Source: Actinomycetota bacterium
Lineage (GTDB): Bacteria > Actinomycetota > Thermoleophilia > BMS3ABIN01
Length of the DNA stretch: 64,000 nucleotides
NCBI GenBank assembly: GCA_023382335.1
Contig: JAMCPM010000013.1
Location: 62,001 to 126,000, forward strand
Reading direction: 5' to 3'
A program made the translations under genes and the position numbers. Positions 864 through 15,145 of this stretch are shown here, in pieces; the first letter of the stretch is position 1; every line of letters begins with the position of its first letter. The notes under the pieces were generated by a model. That model was not told the DNA's origin and made no database searches. It saw only the letters and a program-made list of their open reading frames with translations.

Positions 864-1202
864 CTATCCGAAGCGGTACTGCACCCCGAAGCCGCCTCGG
901 GGATAACGCATGGTGATGTTGTCGTAAGGGCAGCCGCCGTTGCGGCAGGTGCCGCATTCCAGGCAGCCCTCGAAGGCGATCGAGATCGATTTTTCCTCTT
1001 CTTCCCAGCGGTAGACCTGCGCCGGGCAGGAATGGGTGCAGAACTTGCGCCGGCAGCGCTCCCGGCAGACCTGTTCGTCCTTGATCTCCAGGTGCGCTGT
1101 GTCGTCCGGCTTGAACTTGACCACGCCCAGCTGGGCGGTGACGTCGTGTTTCGGCGGCGTCCAATCACGGTCGTCGTATGGAAGTCTGTCATTCATCGTC
1201 AT
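864..1202 (-). CDS. fixX: FixX ferredoxin-like protein of the bifurcating ETF complex
   Basis: A 112-residue ferredoxin-like protein and the last gene of the fixABCX cluster. Two cysteine groups are visible: Cys46, Cys50, Cys55, Cys59 and the signature CLECGTC plus a downstream CP (Cys80, Cys83, Cys86, Cys91), the pattern of FixX proteins that carry iron-sulfur clusters. In the family FixX partners with FixC to pass electrons from the FixAB flavoprotein to the quinone pool. The start ATG at 1202 overlaps the fixC stop as ATGA, which implies translational coupling; a second in-frame ATG lies two codons later. The ending GGFGVQYRFG is typical of the family. Confidence 0.9.
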   Translation of the reverse strand: MTMNDRLPYDDRDWTPPKHDVTAQLGVVKFKPDDTAHLEIKDEQVCRERCRRKFCTHSCPAQVYRWEEEEKSISIAFEGCLECGTCRNGGCPYDNITMRYPRGGFGVQYRFG

Positions 1203-2539
1203 GAGAACGCCCTCCAGCCATCCCAGAGATCTTTTATCAGCCGGCGCGTCGGCATTTGCGATCTTGCCAGTTTTGTGATTAGGTGCATCTTGTCGGCTTT
1301 GGTGAGCGAGTCGACCGTGAGCATCTCCTTGACCGCCGCCGAGGCCAGCTGGGGATAAAGGCTGAAGAAATGTTTATGGGAAGAAAACAGCGATGTCATT
1401 CCCTCGAAAGTCTTGAGGTCTTTCATAATGATGCTTCTGCCGACCAAATCGCCGTAACGGCCGAGCGTCCGACGGCTGTAATCTCCCGACCCGCGCGCCT
1501 GCAATACGGTTTCGGCGGCCATCTTGCCCGAGAGCAGGGCCAGGTTGGCGCCTTCGCTGAAGACGGCGTTGACCATGCCGGCGGCGTCTCCGGCGACCAG
1601 AACGCCATCGCCATACAGACTGGGCATGCTGCGATAACCGCCCTCAGGGATGAGATGGGCGGCGTACTCGCGGCGCCCGGCGCCATCGATCAGCCTCCGC
1701 ACTTGAGGCTGCGCCTTGAACCGCTCCAGGAGACTATATGCTGCCCCGGCGCGGTCAACCATGTCCTTGAGGATGACGCCGACGCCGATCGATATCGTGT
1801 CCCTGTTGGTGTAGATGAAGCCGGTGCCCGGTATGCCGCCGGTGATCTCGCCGACCACTTCGAAGGCGGCGCCGGTATCCGTGCCGAGGCTGAAGCGGTC
1901 TTCGAGTTTCTCCTTGGGGAGCGCCAGCACTTCCTTGACCGCGACCGCTATCGCTTCGGCTTTGACGCCCTGGCTCATTCCCGCCTTCTCGGCCAGGAAG
2001 GGATTGACGCCCTCGGCGAGGATAACCACGTCGGCCTCGAGGTCGCCATCGGGGCGCCCGGTGCGCACGCCGATGACCTTGCCGCCGTCCCAGAGAAGGT
2101 CCTCGACCAGAGTCTCGGTGATGATGACTGCGCCCTTGGCGCTTGCCTGCGCCGCCAGCCATTTGTCGAAGCGTGAGCGGAAGACCGAGAAGGAATTGTA
2201 GGGCTCGGCTCCGAAATCGGTTGACTCATACGCAGCTTTGAGGACGGAGTCGCCGGTCGTCAGCCACATCTCGCGGCGGGTCACGGGACGCTCCAGCGGA
2301 GCTTCCTTCCAGAAATCGGGAACCACCTGCGAGGTCGGCTGGGAGAAGACGAGGCCGCCCATCACGTTCTTGCTGCCAGGCCAGTCGCCCCGCTCGATGA
2401 CGACGACGCTCGCGCCTCCGGCCGCCAGGGTATATGCGGCCGACAGGCCCGCGGGGCCGCCGCCGACGACGATTGCGTCGAATCTTGCGGGCGCCGGCGT
2501 TGCCTGCCCGGCTGCATCAGCTTTAGCGGCCGGCGTCAC
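1199..2539 (-). CDS. fixC: FixC, electron-transfer-flavoprotein quinone oxidoreductase
   Basis: A 446-residue FAD-dependent oxidoreductase of the ETF-QO/FixC family. The dinucleotide-binding glycine motif GGGPAG lies at residues 26-31, after a short Ala-rich leader that is longer than in most relatives. GDAAGMVN and a GANLAL-type segment in the second half are typical FAD contacts. FixC accepts electrons from FixAB and, with FixX, reduces membrane quinone while the complex also makes reduced ferredoxin or flavodoxin from NADH. The start overlaps the fixB stop by four bases and the stop overlaps the fixX start, so the four genes form one tightly coupled unit. Confidence 0.93.
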   Translation of the reverse strand: MTPAAKADAAGQATPAPARFDAIVVGGGPAGLSAAYTLAAGGASVVVIERGDWPGSKNVMGGLVFSQPTSQVVPDFWKEAPLERPVTRREMWLTTGDSVLKAAYESTDFGAEPYNSFSVFRSRFDKWLAAQASAKGAVIITETLVEDLLWDGGKVIGVRTGRPDGDLEADVVILAEGVNPFLAEKAGMSQGVKAEAIAVAVKEVLALPKEKLEDRFSLGTDTGAAFEVVGEITGGIPGTGFIYTNRDTISIGVGVILKDMVDRAGAAYSLLERFKAQPQVRRLIDGAGRREYAAHLIPEGGYRSMPSLYGDGVLVAGDAAGMVNAVFSEGANLALLSGKMAAETVLQARGSGDYSRRTLGRYGDLVGRSIIMKDLKTFEGMTSLFSSHKHFFSLYPQLASAAVKEMLTVDSLTKADKMHLITKLARSQMPTRRLIKDLWDGWRAFS

Positions 2540-3657
2540 TTGGCCGCCTCCTTGCGCGTCTTCTCCGCGACCACGCGGTCAAAAACAATTCCCGCTTCGG
2601 CCCCATTCTTGCGTTTCTTGATCTCGGCTATCAGCGCCGGCACCACTTCGAAGAGGTCACCGACGATGCCGAAGTCGGCGATGTTGAAGATGGGCGCCGT
2701 GGGATCGTTGTTGATGGCCAGGACGATGTCCGCCTGCTGCATGCCGGCCAGATGCTGGATGGCGCCGGAGATGCCGACGGCGACATAGAGGACCGGGCGC
2801 ACCGTCTGACCCGTCTGCCCGATCTGGCGCCGTACCGACACCCAGCCGGCATCGACGGCGCCTCGCGAGGCGCCGACAACGCCGCCAAGTTCGCGGGCGA
2901 GATCTTCCAGCAGTGAAAAATTCCTTGCCTGATGCATGCCCCTGCCGCCCGAGACGATCACGTCGGCGCCCTGCAACGAAGCTTCATCCTCCAGTTCGGG
3001 AAGATAATGGAGCCTGCGCACGGGCTGCACCGCCGCCAGACGCGGTTTGTAGGTGATGACATTGCCGCCGGCGCCGGCATCGGCTTTGGCTATCGGGAAG
3101 ACTCCCGGCCGCACGGTCGCCATCTGCGGCAGGTGTCCGGGCGAGATGATTGTCGCCATGATGTTGCCGCCGAAGGCGGGGCGGGTCTGCCGCAGGAGCC
3201 TGGTATCGGGATCGATCTCAAGCGAGGTGCAATCGGCGGTCAGCCCCGTCTCGAGCTCGGTGGCCACGGCCGAGGCCAGGTCGCGGCCCCTGGTCGTCGC
3301 GCCCAGGAGTATTATTCCCGGGGAATATTTGCCGGCCAGCCCCGCCAGAGCGTGGCTTTGAGGCTCGGCTGTAAAGGGCGAGAGGGCGTCATCGTCGGCG
3401 ATATAGACAATGGCGGCTCCGTAGGAGAACGCCTGTTTCGCCAGCTGGCCGCTGTTGTCTCCGTCTCCCAGGATTACGGCTGTGGGTTGGGTTCCAAGAT
3501 CGGCCGCCAGGCGGCGCGCCTCGCCCATCAGTTCCCAGGATACCCGGGCCGCCAGGTCGCCTTCATGTTCGATGACGACCCAGACATCGCCAATCTTGCT
3601 GTCCGCGCCGGCCTTTGCCGTAGAGCCGCTTTCCTTTTTTCCCGACTTGCCGGCCAT
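2536..3657 (-). CDS. fixB: FixB, electron transfer flavoprotein alpha subunit
   Basis: A 373-residue EtfA/FixB protein. The C-terminal FAD domain is well preserved: GASRGAVDAGW, then QIGQTGQTV, then GISGAIQHLAGM and APIFNIADFGIVGD, the usual FAD-contacting blocks. The start chosen is the ATG at 3657, whose A is the last base of the fixA stop (TGATG); the frame stays open upstream but that part overlaps fixA without homology. The first 25 residues are a Lys/Ser/Gly-rich stretch not expected in the family core. It forms a heterodimer with FixA that splits electrons between ferredoxin/flavodoxin and quinone. Confidence 0.93.
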   Translation of the reverse strand: MAGKSGKKESGSTAKAGADSKIGDVWVVIEHEGDLAARVSWELMGEARRLAADLGTQPTAVILGDGDNSGQLAKQAFSYGAAIVYIADDDALSPFTAEPQSHALAGLAGKYSPGIILLGATTRGRDLASAVATELETGLTADCTSLEIDPDTRLLRQTRPAFGGNIMATIISPGHLPQMATVRPGVFPIAKADAGAGGNVITYKPRLAAVQPVRRLHYLPELEDEASLQGADVIVSGGRGMHQARNFSLLEDLARELGGVVGASRGAVDAGWVSVRRQIGQTGQTVRPVLYVAVGISGAIQHLAGMQQADIVLAINNDPTAPIFNIADFGIVGDLFEVVPALIAEIKKRKNGAEAGIVFDRVVAEKTRKEAAK

Positions 3658-4487
3658 CAGACGCTTTTGCCCATCTTGAGGCCGCGCTCCTGCAGGCGTT
3701 CCATGACCGTGGCCGCCACTTCCGCCGGTGAGGAATCGGAGGCGGTGAAGATCTCGCCGCGCTCGCGCGACGGTGGCGCGAAAATCTTGTTGACTCGAGT
3801 CGGCGAGCCCTTGAGCCCCAGCCGTGAGCGCTCGGCGCCGACATCGTCGGCGCTCCATACCTCGACCGGTTTGCCGGCCGCCGCGATCAGGTCCGGTAGC
3901 GCGGCGTACCTGATGCGATTGCAGACTTCTGTTATCGTCAGGGCCGCCGGCAGCTTCGCCTCGAGCAGCTCGCGGCCGCTCTCGAGTTGACGCCAGGCGC
4001 GGATGACACCCGCCTTGGTGTCGAGCTCTTCAAGGCCGCATATATAAGTAACCTGGCTCATGCCGAGACGGCGCGCCAGGCCCGGACCGACCTGACCGGT
4101 GTCGCCGTCGATGGACTGCTTGCCGCAGATGACGAGATCGACGGCGTCCTGTTCGGAGATCTTGCGGATGGCCGCCGCCAGGGCGAAGGTGGTGGCGAGG
4201 GTGTCGGCGCCGGCAAAGGCGCGGTCGGATAGCAGCACGGCGCGGTCGACGCCGAAGCCCAGGACCTTGCGCAGGGTTTCTTCCGCCTGCGGCGGTCCCA
4301 TGGAAAGCACGGTGATGCGGCCGCCGTGTTCGTCTCGAAGATGAAGGGCGGCCTCGACTGCATGAAGGTCGAACGGATTGATGACCGAAGGGATTCCCTG
4401 GCGTATGAGGCTTCCAGTCTCCGGATCGATCCGGACCTGGGTGGTGTCAGGCACCTGCTTGACACATACGACTGAGTGAACTGACAA
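3657..4487 (-). CDS. fixA: FixA, electron transfer flavoprotein beta subunit
   Basis: A 276-residue EtfB/FixA protein and first gene of the fix cluster. A TTG at 4487 is chosen because it lies five bases after AAGGAGG and gives the family N-terminus SVHSVVCVKQVPDT; the upstream ATG at 4529 has no binding site. Family marks include INPFDLHAVEAAL, VICGKQSIDGDTGQVGP and the nearby GADTLATTFALAAA segment. With FixB it forms the bifurcating flavoprotein that oxidises NADH. No nitrogenase genes are in view, so the complex more likely supplies low-potential ferredoxin for other reductive work. The 98 bases upstream show no clear promoter. Confidence 0.92.
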   Translation of the reverse strand: MSVHSVVCVKQVPDTTQVRIDPETGSLIRQGIPSVINPFDLHAVEAALHLRDEHGGRITVLSMGPPQAEETLRKVLGFGVDRAVLLSDRAFAGADTLATTFALAAAIRKISEQDAVDLVICGKQSIDGDTGQVGPGLARRLGMSQVTYICGLEELDTKAGVIRAWRQLESGRELLEAKLPAALTITEVCNRIRYAALPDLIAAAGKPVEVWSADDVGAERSRLGLKGSPTRVNKIFAPPSRERGEIFTASDSSPAEVAATVMERLQERGLKMGKSV

Positions 4488-4585
4488 ACGCCCTCCTTCG
4501 GGAATAATAGCCGCCACGGCCCCCCACATTCTTCACATCAGACCCGGCCGTGAATCTGCCGCCCTGCCTTGCAGCCGTCCGGCGT

Positions 4586-5145: not shown

Positions 5146-5340
5146 ATGAAAGTCAAAATCGAACCGAGGGATGAATGCCTGGGCGACGGCATCTGCGCCG
5201 ACGAGTGCCCGGAAGTATTCGAGCTTTCGGATGACGGCCTGGCCACGGTAATCGTTGCCGAACCCAGCGAAGAATTGCGTGAAGCGGTTCAGAGCGCCTG
5301 CGACGAGTGCCCCGCGGAGATAATCATCATCGAGGAATAA
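5146..5340 (+). CDS. Small single-cluster ferredoxin
   Basis: A 64-residue acidic ferredoxin with cysteines at 11, 17, 21, 52 and 55. The pattern CLGDGICADEC followed by a distal CDECP resembles the Fer4_13/Fer4_15 single-cluster ferredoxins of Gram-positive bacteria. With one cysteine in the distal pair used, four ligands could hold a [4Fe-4S] or [3Fe-4S] cluster. The ATG follows GAAAGGAGAG. It is divergent from the STAS gene and is followed 26 bases later by a cupredoxin lipoprotein. It could be an electron acceptor for the nearby FixABCX complex or donate to the reductase fusion at 5777, but the sequence does not show the partner. Confidence 0.88.
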   Translation: MKVKIEPRDECLGDGICADECPEVFELSDDGLATVIVAEPSEELREAVQSACDECPAEIIIIEE

Positions 5341-5366
5341 AGACAAAATCAAGGAAAGGGAATGTT

Positions 5367-5753
5367 TTGAAGAAGGTAGTCAGCATATTGTTGGCCGCGG
5401 TGGTCATGGCTTCCGTCTTGTTGGCCGTGGCCTCATGCGGCGGCAGCTCGAGCGACACAGGCGCCAGCTCTCAACCGGTGACGATCTCCGATAAATCGGC
5501 GACGGTCAATATACAAAACCTGTCGTTCGATCCGAAGACGATCGCGATCCAGACAGGAACCACTGTCACCTGGAGCAACAGCGATACGCTTACGCACACG
5601 GTTACCGCGAGCAATGGCGCCTTCGATTCCGGCAGGCTCGATCCCGGCAAGAACTTCGGCTACACATTCAATTCACCGGGGACGTTCGATTATGCCTGTA
5701 CCATACATCCAACGATGAAGGGCCAGGTCATAGTCAGCGGGCCTGAAACGTAG
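5367..5753 (+). CDS. Plastocyanin-like blue copper lipoprotein
   Basis: A 128-residue exported cupredoxin. The start is a TTG at 5367 behind AAGGAAAGGG; the track-style upstream ATG overlaps the ferredoxin gene and has no site. The signal peptide ends in the lipobox VASC, so Cys24 is probably lipidated and the domain anchored outside the membrane. Type 1 copper ligands are visible as His77 (THTV), Cys111, His114 and Met117 (CTIHPTM), the plastocyanin order. The family carries single electrons between membrane complexes and terminal enzymes. It lies 23 bases before the probable selenoprotein, so the ferredoxin, cupredoxin and reductase may share a transcript. Confidence 0.9.
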   Translation: MKKVVSILLAAVVMASVLLAVASCGGSSSDTGASSQPVTISDKSATVNIQNLSFDPKTIAIQTGTTVTWSNSDTLTHTVTASNGAFDSGRLDPGKNFGYTFNSPGTFDYACTIHPTMKGQVIVSGPET

Positions 5754-5776
5754 CCGGAAGCGTCGGGGGAGGCAGC

Positions 5777-6982
5777 GTGGCATCACCCGAGATCCTCATA
5801 TATTCGACCCCGGGTTGACCTCATTGCGTCAGCCTCAAGGACCTCCTCCGTGCGAGGGGCATCGAATTCAGGACGAAAGACATCAGCAGCGATCCGGGGG
5901 TGCGCGAAGAGATGCAGCAGCGCACCGGCAAGACCTACGTGCCGCAGATCTTCATCGGCGATGAATATATTGGCGGTTACGCCGACTTCCTGATGCAGGA
6001 CGCCCGGGGCGAGATCGACAAGAAACTCGGTCTCCAGCCGCGTAAAAAAGCCCACGCCGAGGAGGAGCTTCTCGACGTCCTGATCATAGGCGGCGGGCCC
6101 GCGGGGCTGACCGCTGCCGTCTATGCCGCCCGCAAGAACCTCAAGGCCGCCATTGTCACAGACGAGCTTGGAGGTCAACCCATGGGGACCTCCGGCGTTG
6201 AGAACTACATGGGCTTCCAGTACATCGGCGGACCCGAGCTGATGGCCAGGTTCAGGGAGCAGACGGAGAAGTATCCCGTCGAGGTGATCACCGGGGAAAA
6301 GATCTCCCGGCTGGAAAACGCAGGCGGCCTCATGCGCGCCTCCACCCGCACGGGGAAGGAGCTGCGCTCCCGCACCGTCATCATCGCCTCAGGCAAACGC
6401 TCGCGGCTGCTGAATATTCCCGGTGAAGCCCAATACACGGGGCGCGGTGTCAGCTACTGCTCGACATGTGATGCTCCGGTCTTCAGCGGCAAGCCGGTCA
6501 TGGTCGTGGGCGGGGGCAACTCGGCGCTGTCGGCGGCTCTGGAGCTGGCCGCCATCAGCCCCAACGTGCAGCTGGTCTCCCAGACCAGGCTGACCGGCGA
6601 CGAGATCCTCAGCGGCAAGATCCTGGCTGATGACCGCATCTGTAAACATTTCCAGTGGCAGCCGCTGGAGATCAAAGGCGACGGTAAGCAGGTACAATCC
6701 GTCGTCATCGGCTCCATCGACGGCAGGGATACGAAAGAGCTTGACGTCAACGCGGTCTTTGTTGAAGTCGGACTCTACCCCAACTCGAGTTTCGCGGTCG
6801 ATCTGCTGCAGCTCAACAGCGAAGGCGAGGTAGTCGTCGATTGCGATTGCCGCACCGGCGTCAAGGGAGTCTTCGCCGCCGGCGACGTCACCCAGGTTCG
6901 CGACAAACAGATCGTGGTAGCTGTGGGCGAGGGCGCCAAAGCCGCGCTCTCGGCCTACGATTATCTGCAGTCCGGCAGGTGA
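5777..6982 (+). CDS. Glutaredoxin / AhpF-type thioredoxin reductase fusion with in-frame TGA (probable selenocysteine)
   Basis: From a GTG at 5777 (GGGGGAGG six bases upstream) the frame encodes a 401-residue fusion if the TGA at 5816-5818 is read through. The N-terminal 80 residues are a glutaredoxin: ILIYSTPG, then TGA at codon 14, then PHC with Cys17, then YVPQIFIGDEYIGGY. The TGA falls exactly on the catalytic cysteine of the CPHC active site, so selenocysteine is the natural reading. Residues from about 98 form an FAD/NAD(P)H reductase with GGGPAG (105-110), redox pair CSTC (Cys228, Cys231), GGGNSAL (245-251) and the ending GEGAKAALSAYDYL. The second nucleotide motif lacks the HRR signature of NADPH thioredoxin reductases and looks like AhpF, which uses NADH. 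It probably reduces disulfides or peroxiredoxins. A sequencing error (TGC to TGA) is the main alternative. Confidence 0.88.
5843..5859 (+). promoter_or_regulatory. Candidate bacterial SECIS hairpin
   Basis: A hairpin inside the coding sequence, 24 bases after the TGA at 5816-5818. The six-pair stem is CTCCTC with GAGGGG (one U-G pair), closing a five-base loop CGTGC. The loop has a G at its second position and begins 30 bases after the TGA. Both features fit the published bacterial SECIS rules (apical loop 16-37 bases from UGA, a G among the first two loop bases). It would recruit SelB with selenocysteyl-tRNA. The fold was made by eye, not by a program. Confidence 0.6.
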
Positions 6983-14970: not shown

Positions 14971-14976
14971 TATTTA

Positions 14977-15127
14977 ACCTTGTAGCCGAGATCCGTTAAC
15001 AACGGATGCGGGGGAACCAAATCTTCCCGGGGCGAATTCCAGCAGAGGGACATGAAGCTTTGTCCTTATGCGGATAGGGCACTTCCAGGCCCGAGCCCGT
15101 CAGCTAACCTCGCAGGCATTTGGAAGA
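14977..15127 (+). ncRNA. ydaO/yuaA-type c-di-AMP riboswitch
   Basis: The leader contains the diagnostic conserved blocks in order: GCGGGGGAACC, GGGGCGAAT, and GCCCGAGCCCGTCAGC followed by TAACCTCGCAGGC. These match the ydaO element, which binds cyclic di-AMP and in known cases turns genes off when the ligand is bound. It sits 146 bases before kdpA and is followed by an intrinsic terminator. High c-di-AMP would therefore stop transcription of the potassium ATPase genes, as expected for a signal that reports adequate potassium. Confidence 0.95.
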
Positions 15128-15145
15128 ACAAAAGGCAGGCTAACG

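Follow-up and report, generated by a model that had tools for sequence, protein, structure and literature searches.

A predicted selenoprotein that fuses a selenocysteine glutaredoxin to a thioredoxin reductase-like flavoprotein in uncultivated Actinomycetota

The DNA analyzed here, a 64,000-nucleotide stretch from a member of the Actinomycetota that we refer to as the window, carries a gene on its forward strand (5777-6982) that, judged by comparison with its relatives, encodes a true selenoprotein, with the selenocysteine (Sec) codon lying inside a glutaredoxin (Grx) domain that is fused to a flavoprotein reductase. We have good confidence that the evidence as a whole is best explained by a protein decoded via SelB and tRNA-Sec, acting as a disulfide reductase in which electrons would pass, within one chain, from NADPH to FAD, then to a CSTC motif and finally to a Sec-Cys pair.

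The reading frame starts at a GTG codon (5777), 4 nt downstream of a Shine-Dalgarno sequence, GGGGGAGG (5765-5772, forward strand). A ribosome binding site had been claimed at this point, and GGAGG also precedes the start in the close orthologues L024, L025, L027 and L028. The frame continues for 401 residues to a terminal TGA (6980-6982), and is open except for a TGA in the same frame at 5816-5818, which would encode Sec at residue 14. As the original prediction stated, this codon falls on the catalytic cysteine of a Grx motif, i.e., the N-terminal active-site position (UPHC), and the frame is open on both sides of it, yielding a read-through translation with two Pfam domains. The standard-code (table 11) open reading frame begins at 5900, also as claimed, so that plain gene calling would truncate the fusion and drop its Grx active site.

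The Grx domain occupies approximately residues 1-90 (5777-6046). Its match to PF00462 covers residues 6-65 (E = 7.5e-20; 71.3 bits, against a gathering score of 22.9), and it carries the hallmarks U14-P-H-C17, a cis-Pro VP motif aligned at residues 55-56, and the signature VPQIFIGDEYIGGY. The FAD/NAD(P)H reductase domain (6065-6979), which is of the low-Mr thioredoxin reductase (TrxR)/AhpF type, matches Pyr_redox_2 (PF07992) over residues 100-386 (E = 3.3e-42). It contains the intact, redox-active CSTC pair that had been noted in this half of the protein (residues 228-231; 6458-6469), and its C terminus, ...YLQSGR, is followed directly by the stop. An alignment of 22 proteins shows no exception to either redox pair, U/C14-C17 or C228-C231. 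An AlphaFold2 model, with a mean pLDDT of 81.4 and a pTM of only 0.58, joined a Grx fold to one resembling TrxR.

We looked for the fusion gene in 149 related genomes. Within the host family, the TGA was kept and the frame read through in 15 of 15 readable orthologues (window included), a retention that, on this sequence comparison, is far beyond chance. Ten homologues from two sister families, all full-length and in frame, have TGC or TGT (Cys) at the same codon; thus, homologues of both kinds envisaged in the original prediction exist. Upstream of the TGA, over nine codons, pN/pS was 0.32, and downstream of it 0.29; the likeness of the two flanks argues that both are translated and under protein-level constraint. 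A sixteenth family member (G012, locus L034) has the TGA and the hairpin described below, but its frame is broken by one additional base in the region of the hairpin; this is either an assembly error or a decaying gene. No full-length match to the fusion was found in three other members of the family (G010, G011 and G014, which are 69-89% complete), all of which have selA. The named relatives with the Sec form are all metagenome-assembled genomes of uncultivated Thermoleophilia/Actinomycetes.

All four genes of the Sec machinery (selA, selB, selC and selD), on whose presence the original prediction depends, were found in the host genome, which spans 2.45 Mb and is 99% complete. selA and selB are adjacent and are followed by a tRNA-Sec with a UCA anticodon, and selD carries an in-frame TGA of its own (HGAGUACK). 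selA was found in 29 of 30 relatives examined, genomes with the Cys form among them, so that use of Sec is widespread in the class and does not on its own track the Sec form of the fusion. In-frame TGAs flagged in stand-alone TrxB genes, in the host and in relatives, were rejected as Sec codons because they are stops just outside the gene.

Could the TGA at 5816 instead be a real stop, a sequencing error or a nonsense mutation, the functional protein being a reductase that starts downstream, e.g., at GTG 5900? Standard-code gene calling does place the open reading frame there, but the TGA occupies one and the same catalytic codon in 15 genomes, protein-level constraint upstream of it equals that downstream, a Shine-Dalgarno sequence precedes the upstream start in close relatives, the Cys homologues are in frame over their full length and the Sec machinery is complete. 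We therefore regard this explanation as extremely unlikely. Slighter still is the probability that the TGA is decoded in some other way, either by a reassigned code in which it specifies Trp or Gly, or by low-level read-through; nothing besides the open frame speaks for this. Both the fusion gene itself and the neighboring glycerate kinase gene end in an ordinary TGA stop, which indicates that recoding at 5816 is local, and it was on these grounds that reassignment and read-through were rejected. Moreover, the tRNA-Sec has the UCA anticodon, and the homologues have Cys at this position, neither Trp nor Gly. The reading that we prefer is that the UGA at 5816 would be read as Sec by SelB and tRNA-Sec, with guidance from a hairpin that starts 24 nt after it.

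This hairpin (5843-5859, forward strand), a candidate SECIS element, has arms at 5843-5848 and 5854-5859 enclosing the loop CGUGC. It is short, with 6 bp in the window and 7 bp in relatives, in which the pair equivalent to 5842-5860 is added. In a gap-free alignment of fourteen distinct sequences, columns 27-33 pair with columns 39-45 (5842-5848 with 5854-5860 in the window) around CGUGA-type loops. Standard pairs made up 93.9% of the stem cells, compared with 87.3% in shuffled controls and 62-80% when the partners were slid, and three of the stem pairs change on both sides, i.e., are compensatory; RNAalifold recovered the same helix. The outermost pair, which is C-C in two of the fourteen sequences (the window included), otherwise alternates between U-A and C-G, at third codon positions where the change is not required by the protein. 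The Arg codon in the loop is CGT in 15 of 15 orthologues, a codon that accounts for only 22 of 329 (6.7%) of the Arg codons downstream; the Cys homologues use other codons at this position and lack the CGT hairpin signature. The loop G is the second base (CGUGA), i.e., the early G that is looked for in a SECIS.

The stem-loop had been predicted to start 24 nt after the TGA, and its location, conservation and covariation bear this out, as does its being the predicted fold of a 31-nt sub-stretch. Over the 60 nt that begin with the TGA, however, the minimum-energy fold (-13.2 kcal/mol; z = +0.96) is a different one and no better than that of shuffled sequence, so that the case for a SECIS element rests on the comparison of relatives. 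When the host genome was searched with a model of the hairpin, only the fusion gene matched well, probably on account of the coding sequence contained in the model.

In a wider survey of 396 genomes of the phylum, the fused Sec form was confined to the host family. Elsewhere in the Actinomycetota, a separate Sec-Grx gene (with UPYC, UAYC or UAFC) adjoins a TrxR gene (L093-L097 and L110), and on a Dehalococcoidia contig (L065) a Sec-Grx gene lies about 0.8 kb upstream of one; such gene pairs imply a functional partnership. Cys versions were also present in this survey (L062, L099, L106 and L113). The Cys-form fusions of the sister families (L039-L048) have the same domain order as the Sec fusion, are 42-47% identical to it and keep both redox pairs, but have Cys in place of Sec and no CGT hairpin signature. 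Counted by hand, the distance from the UGA to the hairpin loop is about 22 nt in the least ambiguous of the split genes and 31 nt in the fusion; this difference of about 9 nt suggests that the fusion and the split genes may have acquired Sec in separate events. A tree of reductase domains, from which seven loci (including L065, L062 and L096) were left out, placed the fused Sec forms in one clade (support 100/98) and the fused Cys forms in another well-supported clade, with the split pairs elsewhere; this topology does not fix how many times fusion or the change from Cys to Sec took place.

By analogy with AhpF and TrxR, electrons would flow from NADPH to FAD in the single-chain disulfide reductase, from FAD to the Cys228-Cys231 disulfide, and from that pair to the Sec14-Cys17 selenenylsulfide of the fused Grx domain; the Sec selenolate would then act on cytosolic substrates, reducing their disulfides or mixed disulfides. 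It is plausible that the reductase half recharges the Sec-Grx half within one chain. The host genome also holds a TrxB gene adjoining a thioredoxin gene, together with two other Grx-like genes, so that the fusion probably has a specialized task. Glutathione synthesis was considered as a guide to the substrate and dropped as uninformative, because the only match, to GCS2, was a YbdK-family carboxylate-amine ligase, which passes TIGR02050 but no glutamate-cysteine ligase equivalog cut-off.

The original prediction had called the reductase AhpF-type. As a statement of kinship this stands: AhpF is the best solved relative by sequence and by fold (1hyu and 4o5q), it gave the best NCBIfam score (TIGR03140, 330.9 bits), and it too joins an N-terminal thioredoxin-fold donor domain to a TrxR-like NADPH/FAD domain. 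That the protein actually is AhpF, the F subunit of alkyl hydroperoxide reductase serving AhpC, is nevertheless very unlikely. The score lies under the cut-off of 502.9 bits and covers profile positions 158-512 only. The N-terminal domain of AhpF is a double thioredoxin fold with Cys only; the fusion is about 120 residues shorter and has a single Grx fold, with Sec. Nor was a typical AhpC found in the 99%-complete genome, where the matches to PF00578 were TlpA/ResA-like, plus one TlpA-like fusion, making AhpC an unlikely partner. The fusion also scored below the cut-off for TrxR itself (TIGR01292, 283.5 bits against 343.45), although CSTC is present, and the genome has a separate TrxB.

An alternative that accepts the protein as a selenoprotein is that its Grx domain is mainly a peroxidase-like or low-molecular-weight-thiol enzyme and that the flavoprotein serves another acceptor, so that there would be no self-contained relay. 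Sec is well suited to peroxide chemistry, and with TrxB/thioredoxin and two other Grx-like genes present the genome does not lack a general disulfide reductase. Against this, the CxxC and UxxC pairs are both invariant in the fusions, the same two partners occur elsewhere as neighboring genes, and AhpF, the nearest solved relative, works by an intramolecular relay. We consider this alternative unlikely, and prefer the one-chain disulfide reductase.

The common neighborhood of the orthologues consists of Etf genes, a STAS protein, a ferredoxin, a cupredoxin lipoprotein, the fusion and, in most cases, adenine deaminase. In the window, the conserved small ferredoxin-like gene is at 5146-5340 (forward strand; 70-95% identical in 12 Sec-form loci), and the cupredoxin-like lipoprotein gene, recognized from tblastn matches in Sec-form loci and from sequence features, is directly upstream of the fusion (5307-5753, forward strand). 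A FixABCX/Etf-type electron-transfer cluster occupies 864-4529 on the reverse strand, and its EtfB/EtfA part adjoins the fusion in relatives too. The window also contains a c-di-AMP (ydaO/yuaA) riboswitch at 14974-15133 (forward strand; 82.3 bits). Elsewhere in the host genome, a second probable Sec fusion (L117:223-1854, reverse strand; contig C6, at about 82 kb) has a TlpA/AhpC-TSA-like domain with a TGA in GQUQGC, followed by a GC-rich hairpin; its flavoprotein half shows kinship to type III sulfide:quinone reductase, scoring 234 bits with NF049943, which is under the cut-off. Contig C11 encodes, at about 112.6 kb (L127:1486-1923, reverse strand), a probable thioredoxin-like Sec lipoprotein with an in-frame TGA (RDTUPVC).

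The component parts of the fusion are known, and it is the combination of Sec-Grx with TrxR in one chain that is new, relative to a table of 119 prokaryotic selenoprotein families in a 2026 review in which no such architecture appears (PMC13188914). No NCBIfam model names such a fusion, and we found no description of one in the literature, where most subscription papers fell outside our coverage and absence is not proof. The occurrence in one phylum of fused Sec, fused Cys, split Sec and split Cys forms offers a natural comparison bearing on why Sec replaces Cys in a relay, and on how SECIS elements move.

Sec glutaredoxins are known from Clostridium/Alkaliphilus oremlandii and Geobacter (PF00462, UxxC), and share with the fusion the Grx fold, Sec as the first residue of UxxC and a bacterial SECIS downstream (PMC13188914, PMC1794560, PMC1088965); they are listed as Grx-domain families, to which the fusion adds a flavoprotein reductase. 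The selenoprotein described as a "homolog of AhpF N-terminal domain" (TIGR02187), known from Carboxydothermus and Symbiobacterium, likewise has Sec in a UxxC motif, within a glutaredoxin-like domain akin to the N terminus of AhpF (PMC1794560, PMC13188914), but is listed as a domain of N-terminal type without the reductase.

The animal thioredoxin-glutathione reductase (TGR), like the fusion, combines Grx and TrxR, with Sec, in one chain. TGR is a high-Mr TrxR with a C-terminal Sec (GCUG) and has Cys in its Grx domain, whereas the fusion is of the low-Mr TrxR type, with Sec inside the Grx domain and no C-terminal GCUG. The fusion is the inverse of the TGR arrangement, apparently reached by convergence. 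It is possible, although we put the chance at somewhat less than even, that it forms a self-contained relay from NADPH through FAD and a disulfide to a selenenylsulfide, convergent with TGR, and that, together with the second probable Sec fusion in the same genome, it reflects a habit in this lineage of joining redoxin domains that contain Sec to flavoprotein reductases.
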